Virus record (IMG/VR): IMGVR_UViG_3300042897_000742
Location: 1-64,000 of that record
DNA from: a virus
Length of the DNA: 64,000 nucleotides
Reading direction: 5' to 3' (one strand)
Shown here: one piece after another, positions 3 to 60,015 of the stretch
Layout: each line of letters opens with the position of its first letter
How positions within the stretch are numbered: the stretch's first letter is position 1
Made by a program: the position numbers and the translations under genes
Notes under the pieces: generated by a model
The model's input: only the letters and a program-made list of their open reading frames with translations
What the model was told of the DNA's origin: nothing
Databases searched by the model: none

Positions 3-134
3 ACAATCGCAGAAGGAACTATGGCTCCTAAGATCGCGGTTAAATCTAGATTCGACTTAGTAGACGCTGGATTCCACCCACAAACTATGTACTATGTATT
101 GAACTTCAACTTCAACGGAGTTGATATTATCTAA
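3..134 (+). CDS. 3' end of an unidentified gene (partial)
   Basis: An open frame enters from the left edge and ends at the TAA at 132-134, giving the last 43 residues of a protein that ends FNFNGVDII. It is followed 22 bases later by a strong terminator. Its place next to virion-like genes suggests a structural protein, but the fragment is too short to recognise, so no function is assigned. Confidence 0.6.
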   Translation, partial: TIAEGTMAPKIAVKSRFDLVDAGFHPQTMYYVLNFNFNGVDII

Positions 135-1763: not shown

Positions 1764-2807
1764 ATGAAAGAACTTGTCAATTTTGAACACTTCAGAATAA
1801 TTAGAGAAGCCGAAATTAAATTAGAGGCTCATCTTGACCGTGTAGTTGAACAGGCGATAAATGAAGCTGCGCCTAAACCTGCACAAACTAGAGCAGGTGC
1901 CCTTTTTCAAAATCCTGTTAAATTTTTAAAGATTAAGAACAATGCAAAGAAGTACCAACAGGCGCTAGTACAAAAGGCTCTTAATAATGTAGACTATGAA
2001 AAGAAGGTACAGGCATCTGGTGGAGAAGTAGATGCAGATAAAAAGGAGGTTCTTAGACAGGCTAATGCTGCAAAGAACCAGGCACTTACCGATAAGGCCA
2101 GCGCTATTTCTGACCGTATGAATACTCTTGCAACGAGTCCAGGTTTACAGGCCGTTAAATCTCTTGCTATTTCAAAAGCTAAAGTTGCCGCTGCTGAAAC
2201 TGCTCTTAAAGCTGCTGATGCCGAAGAAACTAAACAACTTAAGATTCAAATAAAGAAACTTAATGCACAAGCTGCTAAGGCAGAACAGACTATTAAGGAT
2301 TATGAAAAGGCCGGAGAACCTAAAGCAGAAGAACCACAGGCTCAAGAGAAACCACAGCAGCAAGAAATGCCTAAAGTAAAGGATAATAAACCTGCAGCTG
2401 AGACTAAGCCCGAAGGTGAAACTAAACCCGAAGGTGAAACTAAACCTGCAGCTGAAACTAAGCCCGAAGGTGAAGATAATACTGAAAAGATAAACGCTAT
2501 AGATGCTAAGATTGATGGTTTAAAAAATAATAAAAAGACTAAAGAAGACCAGCTTAATTCAAAAAATCATCCTGATGTTTTAGCTATTGAAAGACAAATT
2601 AAAGCGGAAGAATTAGAAAAAGCAAAATTAGGTGGTAATTCTGATGATATTGCCGCTGCACAATCTGCTCTTAATGTTGCACAAGATGATCTAAAGGCAG
2701 CCGTTGATGCTGAAAAGGAAGGTACACCGCAAAACAATTCATATGAATATGTTGGTGAATCTTTTACTGATAAATTTAGAAGATTAAGTAAAAATGTAAA
2801 TGTATAA
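1764..2807 (+). CDS. coiled-coil, Ala/Glu/Lys-rich protein with capsid-targeting-like N-terminus
   Basis: This 347-residue, highly charged protein is nearly all helix. It has long Ala/Lys/Glu coiled coils (residues ~45-190 and ~235-325) and a low-complexity hinge of KPEGET/KPAAET repeats (~205-235). The N-terminus MKELVNFEHFRIIREAEI fits the MKxxxxFExFxxxxE|A pattern shared by eleven other proteins here and by T4 internal head proteins, where the prohead protease cuts after Glu. Composition and position suit a prohead core (scaffold) or internal protein. It overlaps the next gene by 8 bases. The role is inferred. Confidence 0.6.
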   Translation: MKELVNFEHFRIIREAEIKLEAHLDRVVEQAINEAAPKPAQTRAGALFQNPVKFLKIKNNAKKYQQALVQKALNNVDYEKKVQASGGEVDADKKEVLRQANAAKNQALTDKASAISDRMNTLATSPGLQAVKSLAISKAKVAAAETALKAADAEETKQLKIQIKKLNAQAAKAEQTIKDYEKAGEPKAEEPQAQEKPQQQEMPKVKDNKPAAETKPEGETKPEGETKPAAETKPEGEDNTEKINAIDAKIDGLKNNKKTKEDQLNSKNHPDVLAIERQIKAEELEKAKLGGNSDDIAAAQSALNVAQDDLKAAVDAEKEGTPQNNSYEYVGESFTDKFRRLSKNVNV

Positions 2808-28326: not shown

Positions 28327-28327
28327 A

Positions 28328-28412: not shown

Positions 28413-28415
28413 CTC

Positions 28416-34951: not shown

Positions 34952-35902
34952 ATGAAGTACTTAAAACTGTTTGAAGAATTCTTAAATGAAGCCGCTGAAG
35001 AAACTGGGTTAAAGAAAGTTTATCTAGCCACTCGTCGTGATAGCGGACAAAGATGGTGGTCTTATAAAGGGTTCGCCGGTGATAAATTCTTTATCCAGGT
35101 TACTGAGAATAACATTGATAAGTTAGATATTAATCCTGAGTACCCGGTACTTAATTATCATAGTACCATTGTAGATGAGTTACTAAAGAAGAAAAAGATT
35201 AAAGAAGAAAACATCTATAATCATCCTAAGTATATTCCATTATCAGGTTCTAAGAAAGAATTTCATAAACTCGTAGGGGAGGATGAAAATGTACCTAAGA
35301 CAGTTTATTCAAAGAATGAAGCATTAGAGAAGTTAAATTTTCCTATTATTGCAAAACCTGCAAATGGTCACAGTGGAATTGGAATCCAGGTAATTAAGAA
35401 GCCTGAGTTAATGGAAGAGATTGATGAGAAGATCTTCGATACTTTTTCTGAATATGTAGATAAAGTAGAAGAAATGAGATTCTTTAACTTTAAAGGTCAA
35501 CCTATCTTTTGGATGGAAAGAACACCTGCAAACAGTAAAGCAAAGTCTGGTGATGGCAAGACCGATGAAGAAATGGAATTCAAGTATGCTAAGAGAAATG
35601 TTAATAACATACCAGAAGACTATAAAAAGGTTTTAGAAAAGTATTGCAAAACATTTGAAAAATTTCCCTATATTTGTTTTGATATGATGAAAGACAAAGA
35701 AGGAAAGATTTATGTAATTGAATCGAATGCTCAACCCGGCGTACCGTTCGATAGTACGGTTGAAATCTATAAGAAAGTATATGAAGATTTCTATGGTAAA
35801 CCATTAGACGATAAATCTCTTCAAAAACTAGATAAATACGCAAAAGAAATGGTTGAAAGAACGCTAAAACGCGATAGTGGAAGATTTTCTGTAAAAAAGT
35901 AG
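34952..35902 (+). CDS. ATP-grasp ligase-like protein with capsid-targeting-like N-terminus
   Basis: The start at 34952 gives 316 residues beginning MKYLKLFEEFLNEAAEE, which fits the shared head-targeting pattern with a possible cut after FLNE. An upstream in-frame start would overlap the previous gene. The body has ATP-grasp features: FPIIAKPANGHSGIGIQVIK (~132-151), an acidic loop, and KIYVIESNAQPGVPF (~264-278) with the metal-binding Glu and Asn. ATP-grasp enzymes join carboxylates to amines; the substrate is unknown. A ligase packed in the head and injected with DNA would be notable. Confidence 0.75.
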   Translation: MKYLKLFEEFLNEAAEETGLKKVYLATRRDSGQRWWSYKGFAGDKFFIQVTENNIDKLDINPEYPVLNYHSTIVDELLKKKKIKEENIYNHPKYIPLSGSKKEFHKLVGEDENVPKTVYSKNEALEKLNFPIIAKPANGHSGIGIQVIKKPELMEEIDEKIFDTFSEYVDKVEEMRFFNFKGQPIFWMERTPANSKAKSGDGKTDEEMEFKYAKRNVNNIPEDYKKVLEKYCKTFEKFPYICFDMMKDKEGKIYVIESNAQPGVPFDSTVEIYKKVYEDFYGKPLDDKSLQKLDKYAKEMVERTLKRDSGRFSVKK

Positions 35903-35921
35903 AAAAAAGTCCACTAAAAAT

Positions 35922-35952: not shown

Positions 35953-35956
35953 TACT

Positions 35957-38371: not shown

Positions 38372-38680
38372 ATGAAACGCATACAAACATTCGAGAGCTT
38401 CTTAAATGAAAGCATATTAAATGAAGCAAAAGTTGTTATTTCTTTTGCTGAAGAGACTGTTTTTAGAAAGGCTCTTTCTGACGCAAATAAAATTTCAAGA
38501 GATTGGCGAGTCAAAATATCACCAGATAAGAAAGGTGAGTATGAAGGAGAAAAAGTTCCTTTTGCTATTGAAGTTTCAGGTAATGTTAATGATTTAATGG
38601 ATTTTGTAAATGTTGCGACTGAGGTAATTAACGGAACACCTGTCTGGACAGATAACCAAAAAATATCAGATTTATTTTAA
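38372..38680 (+). CDS. small protein with capsid-targeting-like N-terminus
   Basis: This 102-residue protein begins MKRIQTFESFLNESILNEAK, with two cleavage-like sites in a row (FLNE|S and ILNE|A). The remaining ~80 residues form a small alpha/beta domain (WRVKISPDKKGEYEGEKVPF, then VSGNVNDLMDFV) of unknown function. It is followed 2 bases later by another gene with the same kind of N-terminus. Confidence 0.6.
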   Translation: MKRIQTFESFLNESILNEAKVVISFAEETVFRKALSDANKISRDWRVKISPDKKGEYEGEKVPFAIEVSGNVNDLMDFVNVATEVINGTPVWTDNQKISDLF

Positions 38681-38682
38681 TT

Positions 38683-38988
38683 ATGAAACATATTCAGTCA
38701 TTCGAGACTTTTTTTGCTAGAACTCTATCTGAGGAATTAGACCAAACGAGACATAAAGCGGCTAAACATATCGAGGATATTGAAACCGATAATGAGTCGG
38801 ACAAAAAGGCTGAAAAGGATGCTCAGGATTATCTAGATGATAAAGCAGATTATTGCCCAAGATGTAAAGAACATAAGGACGATTGCCAATGTGCAGGGGA
38901 GGATCCTTGGTCTACTCAAAATTATCATAGAGTACCTCCTGGTAAAAAGGAGAAGAGTAAAGCAAAACAAGACTTCAAAACAAAATAA
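38683..38988 (+). CDS. small Cys-containing protein with capsid-targeting-like N-terminus
   Basis: This 101-residue protein begins MKHIQSFETFFARTLSEELD. The middle is highly charged, and a CPRCKEHKDDCQC cluster at ~66-78 could bind zinc. The tail is very basic (KKEKSKAKQDFKTK), as in T4 internal proteins that bind packaged DNA. Confidence 0.6.
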   Translation: MKHIQSFETFFARTLSEELDQTRHKAAKHIEDIETDNESDKKAEKDAQDYLDDKADYCPRCKEHKDDCQCAGEDPWSTQNYHRVPPGKKEKSKAKQDFKTK

Positions 38989-45100: not shown

Positions 45101-45463
45101 ATGTTTTATTACAATTCAAATCACTTTGATAACCTACTAAAAGATGCATTTAAAGATTGGCCTACATGGTCAACAACATTAACATCAACTGGTAATCACT
45201 ATTCAGAAAAAACTGATGATGGGTATAAGTTGGAAATTGCAGTTCCTGGCTTAACTAAAGAAGACCTAAAGGTTAAGATTATTAAAGGTGATCTTAACAT
45301 TACCTGTGAAAAAGAAAATCACTGGGTTTCTCGTTTTGACAAAACATTTAATCTACCTAAGGATGCAAACATTAAAAAGGTAAAGGCAACAGTTGAAAGT
45401 GGTATCTTATTAATTACAATTCCTGTAAATGAAGATCCTGAAAACATTGTTGAGATTATTTGA
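45101..45463 (+). CDS. small heat-shock protein (Hsp20/alpha-crystallin)
   Basis: This 120-residue protein has a short aromatic N-terminus and an alpha-crystallin domain: YKLEIAVPGLTKEDLKVKII (~43-62), FDKTFNLPKDANIKKVKATV (~80-99) and ESGILLITIPV (~100-110). The final ENIVEII resembles the I-x-I tail used in oligomer assembly. It holds unfolding proteins for other chaperones. T4-like marine phages also carry Hsp20. Confidence 0.9.
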   Translation: MFYYNSNHFDNLLKDAFKDWPTWSTTLTSTGNHYSEKTDDGYKLEIAVPGLTKEDLKVKIIKGDLNITCEKENHWVSRFDKTFNLPKDANIKKVKATVESGILLITIPVNEDPENIVEII

Positions 45464-45482
45464 AACAAGATAGGTAAACTTG

Positions 45483-45497
45483 TATATAAATAAAAAA
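45483..45497 (+). promoter_or_regulatory. late-type promoter box
   Basis: TATATAAATAAAAAA lies 23 bases before the ATG at 45506. Confidence 0.5.
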
Positions 45498-45505
45498 CAA
45501 TAGAT

Positions 45506-45730
45506 ATGGAAAATCAAAATCCTCAAGAATTAACCCAAGCACAGGCAGTAAATGTTTTAATCCAGGCCGCTCGCATTGCACAGTCAAAGGGAGCATTCAC
45601 GCTTGAAGATGCAGAATTAGTTTCTAAAGCAATTAAGGCGTTTGTACCGGTTAACCAAGAAAATGGCCAGGATCCTGTGATTAACGAGTCTTCTAATGAA
45701 GTCGTTGAACCGGTAATTGAAAAAGCATAA
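45506..45730 (+). CDS. small hypothetical protein (74 aa)
   Basis: This 74-residue protein has a helical first half (LTQAQAVNVLIQAARIAQSK, then FTLEDAELVSKAIKAF) and an acidic tail. It is a single-gene unit between a late-type box and a strong terminator. Function unknown. Confidence 0.6.
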   Translation: MENQNPQELTQAQAVNVLIQAARIAQSKGAFTLEDAELVSKAIKAFVPVNQENGQDPVINESSNEVVEPVIEKA

Positions 45731-45754
45731 AGTGGTTAAACTCTTGGTTTTGAT

Positions 45755-45788
45755 AGAGGATCTGAGAAATCAGATCCTCTTTTTTTTC
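45755..45788 (+). terminator. Rho-independent terminator
   Basis: An 11-bp stem AGAGGATCTGA/TCAGATCCTCT with loop GAAA is followed by seven T before C. Its presence excludes the upstream in-frame start of the next gene. Confidence 0.92.
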
Positions 45789-45821
45789 TTACAGATAAAT
45801 AATAAAATTAAGAACCTGCAG

Positions 45822-47297: not shown

Positions 47298-47303
47298 TTA
47301 TTT

Positions 47304-47978
47304 ATGAAAATAAATGAATACTTTGATAAAGTAATATGCATTAATCTTGCCAAGCGATATGATAGGTGGGAAGAAATGCAGGAGCAGTTTAATAAGCATA
47401 AAATTAAAGTAAGTAGATTTAATGCAATTGATGGAAATCCTATGGGATGGAAGAGCGAGAATTTTGCAGGAAAGGAAACCTCATTCAATGGCGCCATGGG
47501 TTGTATTGCAAGTCATGTTAATGTATATAGTTTAGCCAAACAAAATGGTTGGAAAAATGTTTTAATTATTGAAGATGACTGTGATTTTATAGATAATCTA
47601 AATGAAATGTTTGAAGAGTCTATAAAAACATTACCTAATAAATGGGATCTTTTATATTTTGGTGGAGTTCATGAAACGCGAGGTGGTAAATTCGTTCCTG
47701 AAAAATTTAATAAGTATTTTGTTAGGGCAAAGAGAATTATAACAACTACATGTTATGCAGTTAATCATACTGCATATGATTTAATTTTAGATACCGTCTT
47801 AAAAAAGAAACCTTATTTTGATTGTCCTATAGATACATACTTAGGAGCTTATATACAGCCTAGTTTAGAAACATATGCCTATCATCCACCGATTGCATGG
47901 CAGAGACCAAGTCATAGTGATATTCAAAATGCCCACCGTGACTATTCAGAAATGATGAAAAAGAATAACATAAAATAG
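47304..47978 (+). CDS. GT25-family glycosyltransferase
   Basis: This 224-residue protein has the GT25 (LgtB/Lpt-like) pattern: KVICINLAKRYDRWEEMQEQ (~9-28), VSRFNAIDG (~36-44), GAMGCIASHVNVYSLAKQNG (~63-82), VLIIEDDCDF (~87-96) and YFGGVHETRGG (~117-127). These enzymes add sugars, usually galactose, to surface glycans. It starts 6 bases after the two-domain transferase. Confidence 0.82.
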   Translation: MKINEYFDKVICINLAKRYDRWEEMQEQFNKHKIKVSRFNAIDGNPMGWKSENFAGKETSFNGAMGCIASHVNVYSLAKQNGWKNVLIIEDDCDFIDNLNEMFEESIKTLPNKWDLLYFGGVHETRGGKFVPEKFNKYFVRAKRIITTTCYAVNHTAYDLILDTVLKKKPYFDCPIDTYLGAYIQPSLETYAYHPPIAWQRPSHSDIQNAHRDYSEMMKKNNIK

Positions 47979-47982
47979 CATT

Positions 47983-48546
47983 ATGAAGATTGATTACATA
48001 ATTGCAACTTTATATAGAGATACATTAGATAGAGCTATAAAATCTATAACAGACGAAGGTACAAATCATAACATTTTTGCTATCGGACATATTAAGGATG
48101 GACGAGGGTGTGGTAACAGAAATGCAGGTTTATCTCAAGTTAAAGATAGTGATTGGATTATTTTTCTGGACGATGATGATTATCTAGTTAGAGGATTTAG
48201 TAAACAACTTGATAATAATTTTGATATTGTTGTTTTTAGGATGTCCCAGGATGCATCTAATCCATATTACCCACCTAAAATTATTCCAAGAGTATGTAAT
48301 AAATGTTCTGAAACTACATCAAAAGGATGCTGTTTACATAGTGGGAATGTTGGTAGTAATTTTGCAATAAAGACTTCATTTTATCTTAAGTATAAATGGT
48401 TATTTGATTGTTCTGTTAGGATACCAGACTGGCATTTCTTAGAAAGGGCAATTGAGAAAACCGATAAGATAAAAGTTACAAAAGATATATTTTATGTTGC
48501 TCCAATGGGAGGATATAATAAAGTAAAACCTAATGGAAAAAAATAA
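47983..48546 (+). CDS. GT2-like glycosyltransferase
   Basis: This 187-residue protein has a GT-A start MKIDYIIATLYRDTLDRAIK, then RGCGNRNAGLSQVKDSDWI and IIFLDDDDYLVRG with the metal-binding Asp cluster (~64-67). A CNKCSETTSKGCC segment may bind metal. It is short for GT2, so it may be a compact or partial enzyme. It lies 4 bases after the GT25 gene. Confidence 0.7.
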   Translation: MKIDYIIATLYRDTLDRAIKSITDEGTNHNIFAIGHIKDGRGCGNRNAGLSQVKDSDWIIFLDDDDYLVRGFSKQLDNNFDIVVFRMSQDASNPYYPPKIIPRVCNKCSETTSKGCCLHSGNVGSNFAIKTSFYLKYKWLFDCSVRIPDWHFLERAIEKTDKIKVTKDIFYVAPMGGYNKVKPNGKK

Positions 48547-48552
48547 AAGAGT

Positions 48553-49146
48553 ATGATAATAACAGTTTATAATGATGTTATACCACGAGATGTTGTGGAG
48601 AGCCAAAGAAAGGTATTTGAAAAATTTGGAGAAAGGATTATACAAATTAAACCGAAAGTATGGGAAGGGCATGCCCATACAGTTGATTCTCATTTAAGAA
48701 ATAACGAATGGGAATATGCAATAGTAGTTGATATTGATTGTATTCCTCTAAATAAAGATGTGATTAAAGAAGCAAGAGAATGGGCTTTAAAGAATATAGG
48801 ATTATATTCAGTTGCACAAAATCCTAATCATATACCAGGTGCTCCTGATTATGCAAGCCCAGCCTTTATTGCATTTTCAAGAAAGACTTATGAAGAACTA
48901 GGAAGACCCAGTTTTCAAGGAACTAAGACCTGGGATGTTGGTGGTGAATTAACCTATAAGGCAAGAGAAAAAAATATGCCGATAGTATTAATGTATCCAA
49001 GTCATGTTGAAATTCCTAAATGGAAATTTAAAGATGGAAAAATGTTTGGAATAGGAACTACTTATGCAAATAAAATATATCATCATTTTGAAGGAAGAAG
49101 AGTAACAAAAAGTTTTTTAGATAAATGTAAACAAATTTTATTATGA
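48553..49146 (+). CDS. glycosyltransferase-like protein
   Basis: This 197-residue protein has a nucleotide-sugar-transferase-like core with YAIVVDIDCIPLNKDVIKEA (DxD at ~56-58), later APDYASPAFIAFSR and TWDVGGELTYKAREK. The best guess is a GT-A fold enzyme of unknown specificity. It overlaps the next gene by 4 bases (ATGA). Confidence 0.6.
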   Translation: MIITVYNDVIPRDVVESQRKVFEKFGERIIQIKPKVWEGHAHTVDSHLRNNEWEYAIVVDIDCIPLNKDVIKEAREWALKNIGLYSVAQNPNHIPGAPDYASPAFIAFSRKTYEELGRPSFQGTKTWDVGGELTYKAREKNMPIVLMYPSHVEIPKWKFKDGKMFGIGTTYANKIYHHFEGRRVTKSFLDKCKQILL

Positions 49147-49862
49147 AAAAGACAATTATAATTATCCCTGCAAGATGGGGATCAACTAGACTACCTGCAA
49201 AACCACTTGTTAAGATCTTAGATAAAATAATGATCCAATGGGTTTATGAAGAATGTAAAAAATCATTGGCGGATGAAGTCTATGTGGCAACAGACGATGA
49301 AAGAATCCGCACTAAGGTTAATGAATTTGGTGGTAAATGTATAATGACAGGTGAATGTAAAACCGGAACAGATCGTGTATTAGAAGCTGCTAAAGATCTA
49401 TCATATGATATTCTTATAAACATACAAGGCGATGAACCTGGTATATCATTTAGAGATATTAACTCTCTTATTAATCTGGCAAATAGAAACACACAATCAG
49501 TTTCTACATTATCATCTCTTTTATCCAAAGAAGAACTAACCAATAGAAATGTAGTAAAACTCATTAAGTCTGGTAAAAAGGTTGTAATGTTTACCAGGAG
49601 CAGTTCTTATCTTTTTAGTCCTGATGTAGAAAAGCATATTGGGGCATATGCATTTCCTAAGGAGATTGCAGAAAAGATAGGAAAGCTTAAAACACAAACA
49701 GAAAATGAGATTGCAGAATCTTTAGAACAGTTAAGATGGGCAGATTCTGGAATATCATTTGTATGTAATACAGTTCTTCATGCTGCAAAGGGTGTTGATA
49801 CACCAGAAGACTTAAAAATGATTGAAACATATCTTAAACAAAATAGAAAACAATCAATATAA
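49143..49862 (+). CDS. kdsB: CMP-Kdo synthetase (3-deoxy-manno-octulosonate cytidylyltransferase) homologue
   Basis: This 239-residue protein matches KdsB: IIPARWGSTRLPAKPL (~7-22), the CTP-binding loop, YVATDDERI (~47-55), GTDRVLEA (~75-82) and NIQGDEPGI (~94-102). It activates Kdo, or a related ulosonic acid, as CMP-sugar. KdsB in a phage beside several transferases, two of them of the CMP-sugar-using Maf/GT42 type, suggests the phage alters a surface glycan or decorates itself. Confidence 0.85.
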   Translation: MKKTIIIIPARWGSTRLPAKPLVKILDKIMIQWVYEECKKSLADEVYVATDDERIRTKVNEFGGKCIMTGECKTGTDRVLEAAKDLSYDILINIQGDEPGISFRDINSLINLANRNTQSVSTLSSLLSKEELTNRNVVKLIKSGKKVVMFTRSSSYLFSPDVEKHIGAYAFPKEIAEKIGKLKTQTENEIAESLEQLRWADSGISFVCNTVLHAAKGVDTPEDLKMIETYLKQNRKQSI

Positions 49863-50109: not shown

Positions 50110-50685
50110 ATGGAAAACAACGAAAAAGAAGTAGTACAAGAGCCTTTAAAGAAAAGCGAATTAATTGCTAAACAAAAGGAACTTATGGAGCTTAATGAAA
50201 AGCTTCTTAAAGAAATGCAGGAAAGAGAGTATACCATTGATCTTAACAACAAAAAGATTTTTGATCGTCTTGTTAAATTTCTTGAAAAGGATGCTCCTTG
50301 GGGTCATACCACTGCAACTGGTTTGGTTATGTTATATCATAATCTTCGCGAGCAGAAAGATATCATTATTAAGACAAAGGATTGGGATGGTAAGATCCAA
50401 TTAAGATCTGCCAATGTAACTATTCTTTGGTCAATGGTTACTAAAATGACCGGAAATGGATTCCATGAAGCCAAAGCCTTTATTGAATTAATGGCTGTAT
50501 GTGGAGAAACTTTGGCCGGTGCTGTACAACGTGCCCACCAAGATAATCAACAACTTCGTGAAAATCATGCTAAGTTATCTCAAATTGATGATCAATTAGC
50601 AGATCCTAATATCATCAATGATATTGAAGAATCCACAGAGACTGTATCTATTGCTAATGAAGTAGACCCAGTAACTGAAGCATAA
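50110..50685 (+). CDS. coiled-coil hypothetical protein
   Basis: This 191-residue protein has an N-terminal coiled coil (KSELIAKQKELMELNEKLLK) and a globular helical middle (APWGHTTATGLVMLYHNL, then VTILWSMVTKMTGNGFHEAK) with an acidic tail. No family is recognised. It overlaps the next gene by one base (TAATG). Confidence 0.55.
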   Translation: MENNEKEVVQEPLKKSELIAKQKELMELNEKLLKEMQEREYTIDLNNKKIFDRLVKFLEKDAPWGHTTATGLVMLYHNLREQKDIIIKTKDWDGKIQLRSANVTILWSMVTKMTGNGFHEAKAFIELMAVCGETLAGAVQRAHQDNQQLRENHAKLSQIDDQLADPNIINDIEESTETVSIANEVDPVTEA

Positions 50686-50933
50686 TGGGATTCCACAAAA
50701 GATACATAGATAATCAACAGGTTATTCGCCTATTTAATGAAGGGGGGTCTGACCGGGTTATTAAATGGTATACCGGTAAGGTTGACTCTTTAATCCTAGA
50801 AACCGGACTAGCATCTGACATTAATAAGATTTTATCAGATGGTGAATGGACAATGTTTGGTCAGGCAAAAATTGCCGAAGAAGTTACTAAACGGATTCAT
50901 CAAGAATTAGGAATAGAAGAAATTAAAAAATAA
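50685..50933 (+). CDS. small hypothetical protein (82 aa)
   Basis: This 82-residue helical protein (IDNQQVIRLFNEGG, then KVDSLILETGLASDINKIL) is the last gene before a terminator. Function unknown. Confidence 0.55.
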   Translation: MGFHKRYIDNQQVIRLFNEGGSDRVIKWYTGKVDSLILETGLASDINKILSDGEWTMFGQAKIAEEVTKRIHQELGIEEIKK

Positions 50934-50996: not shown

Positions 50997-51878
50997 ATGA
51001 AATTTATTAAAACGTTTGTTAACTTCTTGACAGAGAAGAAGGAGGAAAAGGATTTTGAGGATAAAATAAAAGGTCATGGCTATTTTAAGGGAATATCTAC
51101 TTCAACCGCCCGTAAGAAAATGGATCAGATGAAAGATCAGGCCGCTAAACCTGACGATGATCCTTCTGCTTATAAAGAATTACCAGGCGACACTAAAGGA
51201 AAGAAACTTCTAAAACCTTCTAAACATACTAAGAATTATCAGGATCTTTATGCTGATGATGAAAAGGAAACAAAAAATGAATCCATCATTAATTGGGAAC
51301 TTTATCAACAACTAAAAGGTGGATCTACGAAAATTGAAAAAGAGCTTAAATATCAGATAGCTGAAAAGTACATAACTATAACAGCAACCGGACTTAATAA
51401 AGATGATAAAGCTGCTCTTATCAAAATGGGTGCAAATGTTACTATGATGGGCCCAGGATGGTATATAAATCTTAAAGATACTGATAAGAAAAAGATATTG
51501 GATTATCTTAATAAAGAAGGTATCGAAGTAAATGAAAACATTAATGAAGAATCTGGTGGAGATCGTTCACCGATTGATAATGATGCAATTGAAACTGGGT
51601 TAAAGAAAAAGAGTGAAGAAACTGGAGTTCCTCTTCCACTCCTTAGAATCGTAATGCGTCGTGGTATGGCTGCATGGAAGAGTGGTCATCGTCCAGGTGC
51701 AGGACAAGAACAGTGGGGTTATGCAAGAGTTAATTCATTTTTAACCCAAGCACCAGGTACTTGGGGTCGTCCTATTAAAGATCCTAAGAAAGGTGCAAAG
51801 GATGCCTATGGTGCTGATGCCGATGTTGCACAAGAAGTAATTAAAGGTGGACATGATAAAAATTTAAAGAAAGGATAA
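50997..51878 (+). CDS. DUF5824-like protein with capsid-targeting-like N-terminus
   Basis: This 293-residue protein begins MKFIKTFVNFLTEKKEEKD. Three parts follow: a disordered basic region (~20-95), a compact domain (~105-178: KYQIAEKYITITATGLNKDD, then GPGWYINLKDTDKKKIL) and, after NENINEESGG, a C-terminal module PLLRIVMRRGMAAWKSGHR with QEQWGYARVNSFL found in phage head-associated proteins (DUF5824, from memory). NESI and NINE|E between parts could be protease sites. It is the first of eight consecutive genes with this N-terminus. Confidence 0.65.
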   Translation: MKFIKTFVNFLTEKKEEKDFEDKIKGHGYFKGISTSTARKKMDQMKDQAAKPDDDPSAYKELPGDTKGKKLLKPSKHTKNYQDLYADDEKETKNESIINWELYQQLKGGSTKIEKELKYQIAEKYITITATGLNKDDKAALIKMGANVTMMGPGWYINLKDTDKKKILDYLNKEGIEVNENINEESGGDRSPIDNDAIETGLKKKSEETGVPLPLLRIVMRRGMAAWKSGHRPGAGQEQWGYARVNSFLTQAPGTWGRPIKDPKKGAKDAYGADADVAQEVIKGGHDKNLKKG

Positions 51879-52324
51879 TGAAAACTATAAAACTTTTTGA
51901 AGAATTTAAAGAAGCAACTTCTTGTCCGGTACCAACTAAAGATTTAGAAGTTAATACCAAAAATCGTAATAGAGCAATTCATGCAGACTTTATTGATTAT
52001 GGTCCTCTTAATGTAGATGAACCTGCTGGGTATTGGGAACATCTCGCAGATCATTGGAAAACTAGTGTAGAAGCTGCTAAGAAATCAACGTGTGGAAATT
52101 GTGTTGCATTTGATATAGCTCCTCGTATGTTAGATTGCATGCCAGGTGAAATTAGCGATGAAGATGGAAAGTTAGGTTATTGTTGGATGCATCATTTCAA
52201 ATGTCATTCTGCACGTAGCTGTTATACTTGGGCAAAAGGCGGTCCTATAACTGATGATAAAGTATCATATGATTGGCAAGAAAGAAATCTTGATGCTGCA
52301 AATAATCCAAACCCTATTAAGTAA
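51878..52324 (+). CDS. Cys-rich phage protein with capsid-targeting-like N-terminus
   Basis: This 148-residue protein begins MKTIKLFEEFKEATS. Seven Cys and several His at ~70-115 (CGNCVAFDIAPRMLDCMPGE, then GYCWMHHFKCHSARSC) form a likely metal or Fe-S site. I recall a similar Cys pattern in T4-like cyanophage proteins of unknown function. Its ATG overlaps the previous stop. Confidence 0.6.
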   Translation: MKTIKLFEEFKEATSCPVPTKDLEVNTKNRNRAIHADFIDYGPLNVDEPAGYWEHLADHWKTSVEAAKKSTCGNCVAFDIAPRMLDCMPGEISDEDGKLGYCWMHHFKCHSARSCYTWAKGGPITDDKVSYDWQERNLDAANNPNPIK

Positions 52325-52333
52325 TTGTTAAAT

Positions 52334-52876
52334 ATGAAATTTGTAAAAAACTTTAATGACTATCATAAGGTATCTGAAGGACTCAAGTATCATATAGAAA
52401 ATGGTTTGGATTTAACCAACAGTGTTTATCGCTTAGGTTCAGATTCATATACCAATCTATTTGAAGAAGTAAAACAGTATTGGGATAAAGGTAATATCAT
52501 TCTAAACGGAAAAAGCGGTTGGATGGCAAAAAACCTTGAAGTTGGAAAACCTGCTGTTTATAATGACCGTAAAACTGGAAGAACTACCAAAGTAAAACTC
52601 GATTCACCGGAAAGAGGTGGAAATAAAAAGTTTATCGTTTATCGTAATACAGGTCGTACTGATGAAAACGGTAATGTAATTGCAAAAAAGATTGAATGGG
52701 GTGATCCGAACCTTACTGTAAAGAATGATGATCCAGGCAGAGCCGCATCATTCTGGGCAAGACACGGTTGTGATAAAGCTGAAAAAATGGATCCTAATAA
52801 GGCAGGTTTCTGGGCATGCTATGGTCCAAGTCTGTTCGGGAAGCAGTTAGGTTTAAGTAGTACTGAACCTTGGTAA
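52334..52876 (+). CDS. conserved phage head-type protein with capsid-targeting-like N-terminus
   Basis: The ATG at 52334 is preferred to the TTG nine bases upstream because it restores the shared N-terminus (MKFVKNFNDYHKVSEG). The 180-residue protein ends with a pattern I associate with many phage structural genes: KIEWGDPNLTVKNDDPGRAA, SFWARHGCD and FWACYG. Molecular role unknown. Confidence 0.6.
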   Translation: MKFVKNFNDYHKVSEGLKYHIENGLDLTNSVYRLGSDSYTNLFEEVKQYWDKGNIILNGKSGWMAKNLEVGKPAVYNDRKTGRTTKVKLDSPERGGNKKFIVYRNTGRTDENGNVIAKKIEWGDPNLTVKNDDPGRAASFWARHGCDKAEKMDPNKAGFWACYGPSLFGKQLGLSSTEPW

Positions 52877-52905
52877 ATAAATAAACAAATAATATAACAA
52901 AAGAT

Positions 52906-54261
52906 ATGAAACATATTCCTAATTATTCTGAATTTAAGAAAATTAATGAAGCCTTTGCTACTTCAATGACAACGGTTCAGACTGATGCTAAATTAAATCA
53001 AGCGGCAGATATCATTACAAATTTCTTAAATAAGAAAACCGGTAAAGCATTTAAGAAATTCCCATTCCTAGTATATTCAGGTGGAACTCCAGGTATTATG
53101 CTTTATAGCGATAAAGATAATTCTGCTGTTAGAATCAGTGGCGGTTCAGGTCGTTTTCCTGGTGTTGTTGGTCAATTAGATTACTTCTCTGATGGAGCTT
53201 CTCATACGGCTGATTTTTCTGTTAGTAGTGAAACATTTCCAATCGTTGCATTACTTAATGAATTTGTTAAATTAGTTAATGAACCTTCATATGCATCAGA
53301 AGTAGAATCATTAACAGAATCTACATTAAATGAAGCAACTAAATCGTTCTCTCCAGCTGAACAAAAAACAATCTTAAGCAGATTGGATAAAGGAGAAAGC
53401 GGTGCTGCTATTGCAAGAGATATGGGAGTATCGTATGGTATGATTTTACAACTTAAGAGAAATGTAAGTGTACCTGAAGATGAGAGTCCTGCTGTAAAGG
53501 CAAATGAATTAACATTACAAGATAAGGTTAAACTATTAGATGAAACGCTTGATGACCTTTATGAAATTACAAGAAGACTTGCCGCTGGCGCATTTACTTC
53601 TTTAATGGTTTCAGGTAGAGCAGGTACTGGTAAAACATTCTCCGTTACTAAAGCCTTAAAGGATGAAGGACTTATTGAGGATGATGACTTTATCGTTGTA
53701 TCTGGTGCAGTATCAGTTATTATGATGTATAAGAAAATGTATCAATATAGAAACCAGGTTCTGGTATTTGATGACTGTGATGCTGTATTCCGCGATGAGA
53801 ATGGCCGTAACATCTTAAAGGCTGCCCTTGATACTAAAAAGACTAGAAGAATCTCTTATCTTAAGAAGAGCGGATTAGTATTTGATCCTAAGGATTTTGA
53901 AAATAATCCAGAGGGTGAATTTAATGCAATTGAAAATGGATTAGTTCCTGCATATTTTGATTTTGCCGGTAGAGTGGTATTTATTTCAAACCTACCTAAA
54001 GATAAGGCTGACCCGGATGGGGCTATTCGTTCAAGATCAATCTTAATTGATGTTAATCCTGATGATATGACTCTAATGGAAAGAATTAAAATTCTTTTAC
54101 CGGATCTTGAACCAAGAGATATGCCTCTCAAAGATAAAGAAGAAATTTTTGAATTTATGAAACGTGCAAAAGACGTCTCAATGAGAACATTTGTTAAGGC
54201 TGCTGGTTTCAAACAGGCAGGTTTAAACAATTGGGAAAGAATGGCACAAAGATATCTATAA
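52906..54261 (+). CDS. multi-domain AAA+ ATPase with capsid-targeting-like N-terminus
   Basis: This 451-residue protein begins MKHIPNYSEFKKINEAFA (INE|A cut site). A beta-rich domain follows (~20-135), then LTESTLNE|ATKSF at ~138-150, a second cut-like site. An HTH-like segment KGESGAAIARDMGVSYGMIL (~164-183) precedes an AAA+ core: Walker A SGRAGTGKT (~237-245), Walker B VLVFDDCDAVF (~285-295), and an arginine-finger region IRSRSILIDV (~367-376). Cutting at LNE would release the HTH-AAA part. An ATPase packed in a head and injected would be unusual. Confidence 0.72.
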   Translation: MKHIPNYSEFKKINEAFATSMTTVQTDAKLNQAADIITNFLNKKTGKAFKKFPFLVYSGGTPGIMLYSDKDNSAVRISGGSGRFPGVVGQLDYFSDGASHTADFSVSSETFPIVALLNEFVKLVNEPSYASEVESLTESTLNEATKSFSPAEQKTILSRLDKGESGAAIARDMGVSYGMILQLKRNVSVPEDESPAVKANELTLQDKVKLLDETLDDLYEITRRLAAGAFTSLMVSGRAGTGKTFSVTKALKDEGLIEDDDFIVVSGAVSVIMMYKKMYQYRNQVLVFDDCDAVFRDENGRNILKAALDTKKTRRISYLKKSGLVFDPKDFENNPEGEFNAIENGLVPAYFDFAGRVVFISNLPKDKADPDGAIRSRSILIDVNPDDMTLMERIKILLPDLEPRDMPLKDKEEIFEFMKRAKDVSMRTFVKAAGFKQAGLNNWERMAQRYL

Positions 54262-54264
54262 TAT

Positions 54265-55710
54265 ATGAAACACTTTAAATCATATAGTGAGTTTAAACTC
54301 CAGGAAAAGTACGAAGGCGTAGAGGTTAGTACTAGACGCTACGAAAGAGTACATGGTAAAAAACCACGTGGAAATGGAATGTGGGCATTTTACCTTGATC
54401 CAGTTGGTGATGAACCTATTTTTACTCCATCTGCTATGAATTATGCCGATGCCGTTAAATGGGCATCTCTTAAAGCCAGAAACATGGGTAAGAAAGTTAT
54501 CTATGTTGGTGAATCACTTAATGAAGCATTAAAGATTGGTGATTTTGTTCGTTATAAAAAGGATAATGACTTTACTGGTGGAAAGATTACAGATCTTAAA
54601 AGTGGAAATGCAATTGTAAAAAATTGGGATGGATCCGAATCAGAATTTAAGCTAGGTGATTTAGAATATGTTAAATCATGGAATGAAGCCGAAAAGAGAG
54701 GTGATAATAAAATTTACTTCAATAAAATGAGCGATATTGACCATACTAGACTTGTTAAATGGATGGGAAAAAATTTAGATAGCGATTATAACGATTATAA
54801 ATTTACAAAAGGTGGGAAAACAAGCACAGACACTCACACCCTAGACACTACTAAATTATCGGAAACCGAACTTAAAGATTTAATCCACTACCTGGAAAGT
54901 CAAAGATATAAATTCTATACCGAAATTTGGTTACCTGCTTACGAAAGTGTTAATGAACGCGAATACACCGATGAACAAAGAATGGATATGGCTGATAAAG
55001 GCCTAGCCTTACCTGATGGCAGCTTTCCAATTAAAGACTTAGAGGATCTTAAAAATGCTATTCAGGCATACGGCCGCTCAAAGGATCAATCCGCTACTGC
55101 TAAATTTATTGTTAAGAGAGCAAAAGCTTTAAGTGCTGAGGATCTTATTCCTGATACCGAGGATTTTCAAAAAGCTTTAAAGGAAACTATTACTGAAGGT
55201 AATGCATTTCTTGCTGCTCGTGCAAAAGCCATCGAAGAAGATGCTGAAGAGTTTGAATTTAACGGTAAGAAATATCCTGTTCTAAACAGACCTAAGAAAC
55301 TTAATGAAGAGCTTTCTGATAATGATGCCTATAAGATTATAGATATAGGTTCAAAGTTTTCTAAGGAAGTAGGCGGTCATTTACTTGCAACTCAAACATT
55401 TGATACAGCAAACGATTTTGTTGATTATCTTCTCTCTGAATTTATTCCAAAGAAGGATCATCCAAAATTCTTAAAATCTGTTAAATCTCTAATGGAATCA
55501 GATTCATCAGAGGAAGATACCGACGAAGAATACATTGATCCAGCTACTTTACCACAATCGGTAAAGGACTATGTTTCTTCTAATTATTCAGATGCTAAAA
55601 TAACTAAAGCTGAAAGTGATGAAGATGGTTTTGAAGTATACTTAAGCAATGGATTAGAGCTCGTATTTGGACCTGACGAAAAATTCATTAAAGCCGTAAA
55701 AGAATCTTAA
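54265..55710 (+). CDS. modular polyprotein-like internal protein with PepSY-like C-terminus
   Basis: This 481-residue protein begins MKHFKSYSEFKLQEKYEG. Distinct short modules are separated by cleavage-like motifs: GESLNE|A (~88-94), ESVNE|R (~225-230), ETITE|G (~307-312) and KKLNE|E (~346-351). Modules include KIGDFVRYKKDNDFTGGKIT (SH3-like), a conserved phage segment ALPDGSFPIKDLEDLKNAIQ, and a C-terminal PepSY-like domain (LPQSVKDYVSSNYSDAKITK, then VYLSNGLELVF). It looks built to be cut into four or five pieces; that is inferred. Confidence 0.62.
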   Translation: MKHFKSYSEFKLQEKYEGVEVSTRRYERVHGKKPRGNGMWAFYLDPVGDEPIFTPSAMNYADAVKWASLKARNMGKKVIYVGESLNEALKIGDFVRYKKDNDFTGGKITDLKSGNAIVKNWDGSESEFKLGDLEYVKSWNEAEKRGDNKIYFNKMSDIDHTRLVKWMGKNLDSDYNDYKFTKGGKTSTDTHTLDTTKLSETELKDLIHYLESQRYKFYTEIWLPAYESVNEREYTDEQRMDMADKGLALPDGSFPIKDLEDLKNAIQAYGRSKDQSATAKFIVKRAKALSAEDLIPDTEDFQKALKETITEGNAFLAARAKAIEEDAEEFEFNGKKYPVLNRPKKLNEELSDNDAYKIIDIGSKFSKEVGGHLLATQTFDTANDFVDYLLSEFIPKKDHPKFLKSVKSLMESDSSEEDTDEEYIDPATLPQSVKDYVSSNYSDAKITKAESDEDGFEVYLSNGLELVFGPDEKFIKAVKES

Positions 55711-55712
55711 AG

Positions 55713-56306
55713 ATGAAATACTTTAAAAAATATAATGAATTTGTTACTGAAAAGATTGCATATCCTGACGGGGATAAATCTACAGGTGATAAGATTCTTG
55801 ATAAATTTGCTAAATTGATTAATAGTCCATCTAGTACTGTTAATATTATGTCATGGGCGGTTCAGGGTAGAAGTATACCTTTTATGACTGGTACCGAATC
55901 ATTTTCTGTAAATGCTAATCCATCGCAAGACTATTTTTGGATTAATACATCAAAGGGAAAATTTAGACTACCTAAAAAAGATATCAAAAAGGCAGAAGAA
56001 CTTTATGATGAGGTAGAATCTATTATACAGACAGGTAAGCCTAAAAGGAGTGTTGAAGAATCTCTTAATGAATCTACTTCACTAAAGAATGCAATCGCTA
56101 TTCTTAAAAAGGAAAACATTATGGCATATCCTAACCCAGAAGATTTGGCAAAAGCAATTCACAAACACTATAAAGAAATTACAGGTAATAAATATGAAGA
56201 TGCCGTTGAAATGTCAATGAATGATAAGGTAGCTGATATCGTATCATATTTTAAGATTGATGGCTCTGATTTTATGTCAGCCTGGGATAAAACAATAAAA
56301 GACTAA
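55713..56306 (+). CDS. two-part internal protein with capsid-targeting-like N-terminus
   Basis: This 197-residue protein begins MKYFKKYNEFVTEKIAYPDG. A first domain (~20-110) ends at SVEESLNE|STSLKN, and a helical second part (~122-197) follows. The spacer motif matches those in the neighbouring genes. No family is recognised for either part. It starts 2 bases after the previous stop. Confidence 0.6.
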   Translation: MKYFKKYNEFVTEKIAYPDGDKSTGDKILDKFAKLINSPSSTVNIMSWAVQGRSIPFMTGTESFSVNANPSQDYFWINTSKGKFRLPKKDIKKAEELYDEVESIIQTGKPKRSVEESLNESTSLKNAIAILKKENIMAYPNPEDLAKAIHKHYKEITGNKYEDAVEMSMNDKVADIVSYFKIDGSDFMSAWDKTIKD

Positions 56307-56312
56307 AAAATT

Positions 56313-56729
56313 ATGATTACATCATTTAATAATTTCGTAAACGAAAACTTTGGAGAAGCCCAAGACATTTATGGTTCATTCTTCGTGGCTATGTTAGGCC
56401 TTAGAGATCAGGCTCATATTTTCCATTGGCAAACGGAATCATTTGCACAGCATAGCGCATTCGGTGGATTTTATGATTCATATCTCGACCTTGTTGATAA
56501 ACTATCAGAATCATTAATTGGCATTCATGGAAGACCTTCTTTTATGGAGGCTGAAATTGAGTTATATGGTTACAGTGAAGAAAATATAGCAATGTTTTTA
56601 GAAAAAGCATATGCCCTATTCTTAGGTCAAGGTACTGAATTGGCCGGAGGTAATACCGAAATCAAGAATATCATCGATGAGATTATTGCTGAACTTGATA
56701 AATTAAAGTATCTTCTTACTTTAAAGTAA
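56313..56729 (+). CDS. ferritin/Dps-like helical protein with capsid-targeting-like N-terminus
   Basis: This 138-residue protein begins MITSFNNFVNENFGEAQD, a shortened form of the shared N-terminus. The helical body has LRDQAHIFHWQTESFAQHSA and YDSYLDLVDKLSESLIGIHG, the His/Asp/Glu spacing of ferritin-like Dps proteins; a similar phage family is DUF5856, from memory. It could bind iron or DNA in the head. Metal-site completeness cannot be judged by eye. Confidence 0.65.
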   Translation: MITSFNNFVNENFGEAQDIYGSFFVAMLGLRDQAHIFHWQTESFAQHSAFGGFYDSYLDLVDKLSESLIGIHGRPSFMEAEIELYGYSEENIAMFLEKAYALFLGQGTELAGGNTEIKNIIDEIIAELDKLKYLLTLK

Positions 56730-57031
56730 TGAAATACATTAAGGCATACGAATCATTCTTATTTGAAGGAAAACCTAAAGGTGCTCCTGATTGGCATGAT
56801 AGTGATGCACCAGATGCGGAGGGTCGTTTTAAAGAATTAAATCCTAAAGATCTTGCTGCGTGGTTAATTAAGACAAGAAAGGGCGATCTTAAGAGAATAA
56901 GTGGTTCGCTAACTCAACAGGTTGTTTTTAACCGTAATGATGATCCTGCATATGCAGATAAAATGGAAAAGACTCGTAAAGAAGTTTATAAACAATTAGG
57001 GAGAGAAGACCTATTAAATAAAAAGGATTAG
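56729..57031 (+). CDS. small conserved protein with capsid-targeting-like N-terminus
   Basis: This 100-residue protein begins MKYIKAYESFLFEGKPKG (LFE|G cut-like site). It continues with DLAAWLIKTRKGDLKRISGS and LTQQVVFNRNDDPAYADKME, a segment type frequent in T4-like phage small proteins. It is basic overall. Last of the eight-gene run. Confidence 0.62.
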   Translation: MKYIKAYESFLFEGKPKGAPDWHDSDAPDAEGRFKELNPKDLAAWLIKTRKGDLKRISGSLTQQVVFNRNDDPAYADKMEKTRKEVYKQLGREDLLNKKD

Positions 57032-57583
57032 ATGAAAAACATTGTCTTAGATAATTTACAAACAAATTTTTGGTTTAACTATCCTAATTTTTATACCGAG
57101 GTTTCACAAAAAGATTATAAGATATTTGTGGAGGTTGGTGTTTGGAAAGGTCATTCAATTTCTTATCTTGCAAAAAAACTAAAAGAATCTAAAAAAGATT
57201 TTAAAGTTTATGCAGTTGATTTATTTGAAAATACATCAAAAGAAGATTGGGGTTATCTAAAAGAAGTTCCTTATATTTATGAAATCTATAATGAAGTTCT
57301 AAAGAGAGAAGGTGTTAGAGATGTCATAACAGATATTAAAGGATGTTCTTGGGATATGGCATCTAAATTTGAAGATCATAGCATAGACTTTGTTTTTATA
57401 GATGCAGGTCATGATTATGAATCTGTTAGTAAAGATATTAAAAATTGGTTACCAAAGATTAAACCGGGCGGTATGATATCTGGTCATGATTTTTATAATT
57501 CTTCAGGGGTAGCCCAAGCAGTTAAGGAATTAGTTCCAGATTTTAGAATTAGTTCAGAAAAAATTTGGTTTAAGCAAATCTAA
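57032..57583 (+). CDS. class I SAM-dependent methyltransferase (Methyltransf_24-like)
   Basis: This 183-residue protein has the SAM motif I variant IFVEVGVWKGHSISYLAKKL (~31-50), motif II VYAVDLFE (~61-68) and the post-motif DFVFIDAGHDYESVSKDIKN (~117-136), then PGGMISGHDF (~146-155). This family often acts in glycan or natural-product pathways, which fits the sugar genes nearby. Substrate unknown. It does not carry the shared head-targeting N-terminus. Confidence 0.8.
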   Translation: MKNIVLDNLQTNFWFNYPNFYTEVSQKDYKIFVEVGVWKGHSISYLAKKLKESKKDFKVYAVDLFENTSKEDWGYLKEVPYIYEIYNEVLKREGVRDVITDIKGCSWDMASKFEDHSIDFVFIDAGHDYESVSKDIKNWLPKIKPGGMISGHDFYNSSGVAQAVKELVPDFRISSEKIWFKQI

Positions 57584-57990: not shown

Positions 57991-60015
57991 ATGGGCGAAA
58001 TATATCCGGAAGATAATATAGAAAGAGAACCAATCAGACAGCAAAAGATGAAAAAACCATCTTTGCAGGTTCTAGAAGCATACGGGACAAATATCACTAA
58101 ACTTGCCTTAGAAGGTAGGTTAGATCCTGTTGTTGGTAGAGAAGAAGAAATACTTAGAGTTATTCAAATATTAGGAAGGCGTAGAAAGAATAATCCTGTA
58201 CTTGTTGGAGAACCTGGTGTTGGTAAAACTGCAATCGTTGAAGGTTTGGCAATGAGAATGATTGAAGGTAATGTACCTGCTTCATTACAAGGCAAAGTCA
58301 TATATACATTAGAATTAACCACAATAGTTGCAGGTACAAAATACCGTGGGCAATTTGAAGAAAGAATGAAAGCCATCGTTGATGAATTGGTGGCTAATCC
58401 ACATGTGATTATTTTTATTGATGAACTTCATACTCTTGTTGGTGCTGGTGGAACTTCAGGTTCTTTGGATGCATCTAACATTATTAAGCCTGCATTGGCT
58501 CGTGGAGAAATCCGATGTATCGGTGCAACTACATTTGATGAGTTCAGAGAAAATATTGAACAGGATGGCGCATTAGATCGCAGATTCCAAAAGGTAGTTA
58601 TTGAACCTGCCTCTACTGATGAAACAATTACAATCCTAACTAATATTAAACATAAGTATGAATCATTCCATAATGTTTCATACACAGATGAAATTGTATC
58701 TCTAATTGTTAAATTGGCAGATCAGTATATCATGGAGAGATTCCTCCCAGATAAGGCTGTGGATATTTTGGATGAGGTTGGTTCTTTTAAACATTTAAGT
58801 AATATGAAAGTTCCTAAAAAGATTAAAAGCTTAGAGGAAAAACTTCATAAAAAGGATGCAGATAAAAATGAAGCAGTAGGAAGACAGGATTATGAAGCTG
58901 CTGCTCGTGAACGAGATATCTGTATTCAACTTAAGGATCAAATTCAAAAAGAATATGCAATATGGAAAAAAGAAATTGCAGAAAACAGACTTGAGATAAC
59001 AACTGATGATGTTCTTAAAGTGGTATCAAAAGGAACTGGTATTCCTTTAGAAAAAATTAATGATAAAGAAAATAAAAATCTGATAGGTCTTAATTCCCAC
59101 CTTGCTTCCAGGGTTATTGGACAAAGAGAAGCTATTGATAAAATCTCTATCACAATCCAAAGAAATCGTGTAGGGATTAGAAAGAGAGATCGCACAGTAG
59201 GTAACTTTATTTTCTTAGGACCAACTGGAGTTGGTAAAACTCAATTGGCTAAAGAAATTGCTAACTATATGTATAGTTCAGAAGACAGTCTTATCAGAAT
59301 AGACATGTCAGAGTATATGGAGCCTCATTCTGTATCTAAATTAATTGGATCTCCTCCTGGATATGTTGGTCACGAATCTGGTGGGTTTCTAACGGAGCAG
59401 GTAAAGAGAAAGCCACACTCTGTTATATTATTTGATGAAGTTGAAAAAGCTCATCCAGAGGTGTTTAATGTGCTCTTACAAATGTTAGATGATGGCCGTT
59501 TAACCGATTCTCTTGGTAGAACTATAGATTTTAGAAATTGTTTGGTAATCTTAACATCAAATACAGGAAGCCGTAAACTTGAGGAATTTGGTGATGGGAT
59601 TGGATTCCGACCATCCACTACAATTGCTGAAAAGTCTCATGCCGAAAAGGAGGTTTTAAAGAAGGCTCTTAATCATAAATTTTCACCGGAATTCTTAAAC
59701 AGAATTGATGAAATCATTATCTTTAATAAGTTAAGTAAGGATGACGTATTTTATATTTTGAATAATGAATGTAATGAACTCAGGGATAACCTATTTGAAG
59801 TTGGTGAATATGATTTTAAGATAACCAAAGCTGCAAAGGAGATAATCATTAATGAAGGTTATGATCCTAAGTTTGGGGCTCGTCCATTAAAGAGAACATT
59901 AGAAAGACTAATTGAAAATCCTATCGCCGAAATGATTCTTAAAGGCGAATTAAAACCAGGCGATACAATTAAAGTTGGTGTAGCCAAAGAATTAATAAAG
60001 ATTGAAAAAGGTTAA
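57991..60015 (+). CDS. Clp-type AAA+ unfoldase (ClpA/ClpC-like, no N-domain)
   Basis: This 674-residue protein has two AAA+ modules: Walker A GEPGVGKT (~73-80) and GPTGVGKT (~410-417), each with its Walker B (IIFIDELHTL; VILFDEVEKAHPE). Between them is a UVR-like stretch NEAVGRQDYEAAARERDICI, a ClpC feature. The usual Clp N-domain is missing. At ~536 FGDGIGFRP matches the position and form of the IGF/IGL loop by which ClpA, ClpX and ClpC grip ClpP. So it could feed proteins into the host ClpP chamber. No clpP gene is in the window. Confidence 0.85.
   Translation: MGEIYPEDNIEREPIRQQKMKKPSLQVLEAYGTNITKLALEGRLDPVVGREEEILRVIQILGRRRKNNPVLVGEPGVGKTAIVEGLAMRMIEGNVPASLQGKVIYTLELTTIVAGTKYRGQFEERMKAIVDELVANPHVIIFIDELHTLVGAGGTSGSLDASNIIKPALARGEIRCIGATTFDEFRENIEQDGALDRRFQKVVIEPASTDETITILTNIKHKYESFHNVSYTDEIVSLIVKLADQYIMERFLPDKAVDILDEVGSFKHLSNMKVPKKIKSLEEKLHKKDADKNEAVGRQDYEAAARERDICIQLKDQIQKEYAIWKKEIAENRLEITTDDVLKVVSKGTGIPLEKINDKENKNLIGLNSHLASRVIGQREAIDKISITIQRNRVGIRKRDRTVGNFIFLGPTGVGKTQLAKEIANYMYSSEDSLIRIDMSEYMEPHSVSKLIGSPPGYVGHESGGFLTEQVKRKPHSVILFDEVEKAHPEVFNVLLQMLDDGRLTDSLGRTIDFRNCLVILTSNTGSRKLEEFGDGIGFRPSTTIAEKSHAEKEVLKKALNHKFSPEFLNRIDEIIIFNKLSKDDVFYILNNECNELRDNLFEVGEYDFKITKAAKEIIINEGYDPKFGARPLKRTLERLIENPIAEMILKGELKPGDTIKVGVAKELIKIEKG

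Follow-up and report, generated by a model that had tools for sequence, protein, structure and literature searches.

Why should a run of consecutive, otherwise unrelated phage proteins begin with the same short peptide? The question arises at positions 50,997 to 57,031 of a 64,000-nucleotide stretch (the window), which is the first 64 kb of the 93,871-base virus record IMGVR_UViG_3300042897_000742 (hereafter G000); the remaining 30 kb were also read. An initial annotation had noticed variants of MKxIxxFExFxxE at the start of 12 genes in the window, eight of them consecutive, and had likened them to the capsid-targeting peptides of T4 internal proteins. Our analysis, which included contigs of the same or sister groups (G001, G003, G004, G005 and G007), indicates that this tag very probably targets proteins to the capsid, as in the T4 internal proteins, and loads swappable cargo into the head.

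A conserved leader on unrelated proteins

All 12 start codons translate as claimed, the weakest tag being that at 56313 (MITSFNNFVNE). The eight tagged genes from 50997 to 57031 are indeed consecutive, and the genes flanking them (50685-50933 and 57032-57583) lack the motif. Four further tagged genes, unnoticed in the first reading, lie past the window, for a total of 16 on 93.9 kb (Table 1). On this contig a strict tag pattern matched 14 of 298 ATGs that begin an open reading frame (ORF), versus a mean of 1.0 and a maximum of 3 for shuffled N-termini, and 1 of 380 internal ATGs; one of the 14 matches (71694, a 52-codon ORF) appears spurious.

The tag is a short, propeptide-like leader of about 10-19 residues. 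That the bodies behind it are unrelated was borne out by an alignment of 52 tagged proteins from this phage and related phages, which shows MKxIxxYExFxNE with no consensus after it and a mean column identity of 7%. Among the body types first listed, the ATP-grasp protein is present but lies at 34952, outside the run of eight. Where two tag copies share an identical residue at an identical position, the codons differ in 41% of pairs, so what is conserved is the peptide and not a copied DNA element.

The likeness to T4 also held: the T4 ipII and ipIII sequences that we fetched begin MKTYQEFIAE/A and ipI begins MKTFKEF...TITE/A (slashes mark known or candidate cut sites). In T4 IPIII, positions 4 and 7, with hydrophobic or aromatic residues, are important for targeting (PMC9026906), and all 62 exact-spacing leaders have I, V, L or F at position 4 and Y or F at position 7, although the search pattern itself demanded both. 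Tags in the window such as MKYLKLFEEF fit this rule, and those at 56313 and 76060 are shorter variants. A hydrophobic-x-Glu motif ends the tag in nearly all copies, a few being imperfect, and the candidate cut sites fall at about residues 11-18.

Head protease and cleavage motifs in relatives

The contig starts inside the head module, 43 codons before the end of the major capsid protein gene, and for that reason the S77 protease and the rest of the capsid gene are absent from it; a family search of the contig found neither an S77 protease nor a gp23 capsid gene. The prohead protease anticipated by the initial annotation is missing from the contig itself and present in its relatives. Of 14 close-relative contigs, 13 have both an S77 protease of gp21 type and a capsid protein of gp23 type, the exception being a 109-kb fragment. 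An S77 domain was detected in all 12 tag-bearing records of more than 130 kb that were tested, one of these matches (E=1.5e-5) being under the family cut-off. The protease is also present in LR756500, a 462-kb metagenomic phage that is the nearest terminase relative in the annotated phage collection (50% identity).

In G001, whose terminase is 97% identical to that of this phage, the head genes run from a portal candidate (39024) through a protease-scaffold (40719), the capsid protein (42533) and a homologue of the tagged protein at 1764 (45843) to the terminase (55410). The protease of these relatives is fused to the scaffold as one protein, encoded directly before the capsid gene. Tagged genes directly adjoin the protease-scaffold gene in G005 and G007, and a further one in G007 separates the protease-scaffold gene from the capsid gene.

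The same [LIV]NE/[AS] sites occur in both of these head proteins of the relatives: LINE/A and HNLNE/S close to the N-terminus of the capsid protein, and four (VNES, INES, INES and VNES) in the protease-scaffold, which in G001 and G003 is the sole untagged protein with at least two such sites. Within tagged bodies the [LIV]NE[AS] motif is 3.4-fold enriched compared with other proteins (p=3e-5).

Tagged proteins in cyanophage virions

Non-structural enzymes are described from the virions of the T4-like cyanophages S-CREM2 (PMC10665884) and S-SCSM1 (PMC9602691), and virion mass spectrometry of S-CREM2 yielded 52 proteins (PMC10665884, Table 3). We found the tag in six of these virion proteins (Table 1). 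A looser pattern, run first and covering about three quarters of the genome, matched 6 of 15 virion versus 9 of 128 other non-structural proteins (p=0.0014). The core [FYL]xxF[LIVMF]xE, sought in the first 30 residues, matched 7 of the 52 virion-detected versus 1 of 167 undetected proteins (p=2e-4); the seventh match, the baseplate protein gp122, is probably due to chance, and removing the L option at the first core position costs gp13 only. The cytidyltransferase of Synechococcus phage syn9 likewise starts MKKFSAFLSE/A. The available passages of the S-CREM2 paper do not mention the tag. Judging from its leader, the Cas9 detected in these virions may be delivered from the capsid.

Spread among relatives and exchange of bodies

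Tag matches were above shuffled expectation in G001 (16 observed, 1.5 expected), G003 (13 and 1.4), G005 (12 and 1.6), G007 (8 and 0.9) and G004 (5 and 1.2). LR756500 had 38 matches versus 4.8 expected, many of them MKYIKEYEEF, and carries roughly 35 tagged genes. At least 120 IMG/VR stretches fitted a degenerate DNA pattern written for the whole tag, and no convincing tags were found in the parts of the PTm1 and PAU genomes that were read. Clustered by body, 136 proteins fell into 58 families and, for a larger set under a stricter pattern, 133 into 66; some clustered families are false positives (for example, a gp46-like nuclease), and we place the number of unrelated body families behind the tag across relatives at about 50-66.

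Exchange of bodies behind a conserved leader was seen once, exactly at LNE/A, between near-identical genomes. The genes at 38372 in G000 and 82574 in G001 occupy the same locus, with DNA near-identical upstream and through TTAAATGAAGCA (LNEA); after LNEA the bodies are unrelated, and similarity returns at the next gene.

Most tagged bodies had no match in domain and family searches. Those with matches include ATP-grasp/RimK, AAA+ (phrog_1250), ferritin/Dps-like (DUF5856, phrog_858), DUF5824, PepSY-like, metallopeptidase-like DUF2201, polynucleotide-kinase (PNK) 3'-phosphatase, leucine-rich repeat and glycosyltransferase proteins, as well as a cytidylyltransferase-like enzyme in L223. The DUF5824 protein at 50997 also matches phrog_3041, a phage cytidyltransferase family, over the C-terminal part of the profile only. 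The Cys-rich protein at 51878 gave no usable predicted structure, its predicted local distance difference test score (pLDDT) being 36. On another viral contig, the tagged protein at L306:1018-1617 resembles anti-CBASS Acb1 and 2H phosphoesterases weakly and below threshold, making it a candidate packaged counter-defence enzyme.

Some cargo consists of several parts. The G005 protein at 19947 passes from a tag to an internal tag, a body like that of 56729, an LNE/S site and another segment, and in G005 77169 an internal tag follows an unrelated N-terminal part. We also considered a domain boundary at the internal LNE/A cut of the AAA+ protein, with T4-type similarity from residue 144, and set it aside as the alignment there was weak.

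Proposed mechanism and alternative explanations

Under the capsid-targeting reading, tagged proteins would join the growing scaffold core within the prohead, where a gp21-type protease would cut after hydrophobic-x-Glu and release the body inside the head. The freed body would stay with the packaged DNA and presumably be delivered to the host when the phage infects. The tag would serve as a general docking point for new, exchangeable bodies, so that the head carries a large and shifting set of enzymes and probable counter-defence proteins. The T4-type head cargo put forward in the initial annotation is supported; cleavage, packaging and host delivery in this phage, and the functions of the bodies, are parts that we infer.

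Several points weigh against this reading. A few tags have no clean hydrophobic-x-Glu at the usual distance (54265, LQE/K; 84537), and the protease gene itself falls outside the contig. The virion data come from a cousin, S-CREM2, not from this phage or its close relatives; the authors permit contamination as the source of the enzymes (PMC10665884), and the strict S-CREM2 core was fixed only after the output of the looser pattern was known.

Tagged proteins might instead be head-core or assembly proteins, either structural or consumed by the protease, and not host cargo. We judge this unlikely, as enzymes are numerous among the bodies (ATP-grasp, AAA+, ferritin-like, cytidylyltransferase-like, PNK 3'-phosphatase) and tagged content varies between close relatives, both of which better suit delivered accessory proteins. 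It does gain from the internal cleavage motifs in many bodies and from conserved tagged families beside head genes (1764; G005 104357; G007 106816 and 109162), which recall T4 gp67/gp68. The 1764 protein, encoded by a conserved gene beside the capsid gene, is probably a head-core protein, and head-core and cargo classes may share one tag.

Contractile injection systems use N-terminal cargo signals. By sequence reading, this phage has a sheath gene at 13093 and hence a contractile tail, and the leader could in principle load the tail or baseplate, like the cargo signals of extracellular contractile injection systems, and not the head. This is very improbable: the peptide matches the T4 head signal, the head-protease sites at its end recur in the capsid and scaffold proteins, and tagged genes group with those of the head and not with those of the tail. 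Many large phages form compartments in the infected cell, and the peptide could equally be pictured as a localisation helix directing proteins to a phage nucleus-like or membrane-associated replication compartment. We attach very little probability to this too, since it accounts for neither the protease-type sites nor the likeness to T4 internal proteins nor the S-CREM2 virion proteins; neither tail loading nor another localisation found support. That the shared start acts only as DNA or RNA, whether by enhancing translation initiation, as a copied repeat or as a recombination site, while the peptide itself does nothing, is scarcely credible. Tagged genes lack Shine-Dalgarno sequences, so that a start-region signal is conceivable, but the codon variation led us to reject a regulatory or DNA-repeat origin, the conserved-residue pattern tracks the peptide, tag copies occur inside proteins and other genes of this phage do without it.

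Resemblance of the tag to scaffold repeats

A search for the tag core among all ORFs in six genomes put the protease-scaffold first each time, with 3-10 matches versus 0.12-0.17 expected, and no other protein had more than two. Tandem repeats multiply a single resemblance, however, the genomes are related, and the distance from aromatic residue to isoleucine differs by one residue. The scaffold consists in part of 14-residue repeats that each hold [FY]xx[YH][LIV]xE, the tag core (YxxYLAE). G001 has nine core matches at exactly 14-residue spacing from 238 to 350 (YSEHIGE, YAEYLSE, YSDYLAE, YTTYLAE, YAEHVAE, YANYLGE, YSEYVAE, YSEHLAE and YAEYIAE).

With the T4 peptide TYQEFIAEA as query against 43,000-147,000 windows per genome, the top 20 were mostly tags or scaffold repeats. 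In G007, for example, nine of them were scaffold windows; in LR756500, 17 were N-terminal and none came from the scaffold. The T4 signal YQEFIAE is nearer to the repeat YAEYIAE than to any stretch of T4 gp22. The scaffolds of T4, syn9, S-CREM2 and PTm1 are without the 14-residue repeat.

These resemblances leave us evenly divided on a further proposal, in which the tag would be a detached scaffold repeat, cargo would load by posing as an extra repeat and one protease would free both. The T4 signal could then be a relic of such an arrangement. The idea offers a directly testable account of how the T4 signal is read and, if true, scaffold-repeat tags and multi-part cargo would amount to a general self-clearing loading system.

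Tagged genes and neighbouring features

Table 1 Tagged genes of G000, the partial capsid gene and tagged S-CREM2 virion proteins. Slashes mark candidate cut sites; positions are those of G000 unless another contig is named.
Position	Strand	Feature	Leader or sequence	Remarks
3..134	+	Major capsid protein gene, C-terminal 43 codons and stop	TIAEGTMAPKIAVKSRFDLVDAGFHPQTMYYVLNFNFNGVDII, then stop	Frame 3; identical to G001 gp23-family end
1764..2807	+	Tagged protein, 347 aa	MKELVNFEHFRIIRE/A	Adjoins capsid gene; 16-member family in relatives
34952..35902	+	Tagged ATP-grasp protein	MKYLKLFEEFLNE/A	
38372..38680	+	Tagged protein	MKRIQTFESFLNE/S-ILNE/A	Body exchanged in G001 just after LNEA
38683..38988	+	Tagged Cys-containing protein	MKHIQSFETFFARTLSE/E	
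50997..51878	+	Tagged DUF5824 protein	MKFIKTFVNFLTE/K	
51878..52324	+	Tagged Cys-rich protein	MKTIKLFEEFKE/A	
52334..52876	+	Tagged protein	MKFVKNFNDYHKVSE/G	
52906..54261	+	Tagged AAA+ ATPase	MKHIPNYSEFKKINE/A	Extra internal sites LTE/S, LNE/A (Glu 143)
54265..55710	+	Tagged PepSY-like protein	MKHFKSYSEFKLQE/K	Several internal hydrophobic-x-Glu sites
55713..56306	+	Tagged protein	MKYFKKYNEFVTE/K	Internal LNE/S
56313..56729	+	Tagged Dps/ferritin-like protein	MITSFNNFVNE/N	
56729..57031	+	Tagged protein	MKYIKAYESFLFE/G	Homologous body behind internal tag in G005 19947
76060		Tagged gene beyond window	MKSYKDFISES	
77229		Tagged gene beyond window	MKHIREYEEFLNEN	
78136		Tagged gene beyond window	MRHIKLFEEFISEA	
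84537		Tagged gene beyond window	MKHIKTYEKF	GTG start codon
		S-CREM2 gp6 SAM hydrolase	MKDFDSFLEE	
		S-CREM2 gp13	MKDLHSFLTE	
		S-CREM2 gp14 kinase	MKRFDAFLTE	
		S-CREM2 gp136	MQTFSMFFSE	
		S-CREM2 gp154 cytidylyltransferase	MKNFSSFLTE/A	
L344:7704-10313	-	S-CREM2 gp12 Cas9	RFASFMAE/A	About 17 residues in; virion-detected by its authors

By sequence reading, genes for Hsp20-like, glycosyltransferase, sugar-nucleotide and ClpB/ClpC-like ATPase proteins (45101-49862 and 57991-60015) flank the cargo cluster. A T4-type late promoter (TATAAATA) was sought upstream of tagged genes and showed no association with them. A sequence of about 54 bp near 35900-35956 has several 78-83% identical copies elsewhere in G001 and G003, and is possibly an intergenic repeat or regulatory element. 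The sole leftward gene in the contig gene list (3277-4008, reverse strand) matches a PHROG alpha-2,3-sialyltransferase family (phrog_4603, E=1e-35). A single array at 24846-28413 combines 22 tRNA genes, close to a full set carried by the phage, with a tmRNA gene for ribosome rescue.

The missing Shine-Dalgarno sequences, together with a head module resembling that of bS21-carrying phages, which are predicted to infect Bacteroidetes (PMC9723584), suggest a host among the Bacteroidota.

Comparison with known systems

If the capsid-targeting reading is true, a simple N-terminal test would predict the injected proteins of many T4-like phages, including huge phages with mostly function-unassigned genes. 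It would also yield dozens of candidate early-acting, possibly counter-defence proteins and provide a packaging route for cyanophage virion enzymes suspected as contaminants, including a Cas9. Literature searches with the literal tag peptide strings returned no papers, and a jumbo-phage survey had no matches for the terms tried.

Among systems with head-protein propeptides cut off by a related protease, the ejection proteins of SPN3US and phiKZ have propeptides mostly longer than 100 residues, one only being of T4-like length (PMC5694885), whereas the candidate cuts here leave far shorter leaders. The N-terminal 30 residues of P1 DarB are enough to bring a foreign protein into the capsid head, but the Dar proteins have no consensus in common (PMC9024508), unlike the tagged proteins. 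S-CREM2 has a SAM hydrolase, kinase, cytidylyltransferase and Cas9 in its virions behind the same type of tag, although in such cyanophages the tagged genes number only about six.

In T-even phages, variable loci for internal proteins (Repoila 1994, cited in PMC12373910, where Ip1-3 are said to inhibit different type IV restriction enzymes) likewise swap different bodies, likely arms-race cargo, behind one conserved leader; the present case concerns another phage group, with a much larger repertoire that is mostly enzymatic or function-unassigned. With T4 IPI-IPIII the tagged proteins share a short N-terminal peptide with aromatic residues, a hydrophobic-x-Glu cut site and unrelated bodies, and the relatives of this phage share with T4 a gp21-family protease and a gp23-family capsid protein. 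T4 has three internal proteins and Alt, compared with 16 tagged genes on a 94-kb fragment here and about 35 in the 462-kb relative; the tag here is three residues longer (MKxIxxFxxFLxE), and in these phages enzyme bodies reach about 600 aa and some cargo is multi-part, with tags inside the protein. The relatives also have no separate gp22-type scaffold, protease and scaffold forming one protein with 14-residue repeats, an anatomical difference that weakens identity with the T4 system but not a T4-like working. We regard the system as a strongly expanded variant of T4 capsid targeting, new in its scale, in having enzymes and multi-part proteins as cargo, in the fusion of protease with scaffold and in the likeness of the tag to the scaffold.

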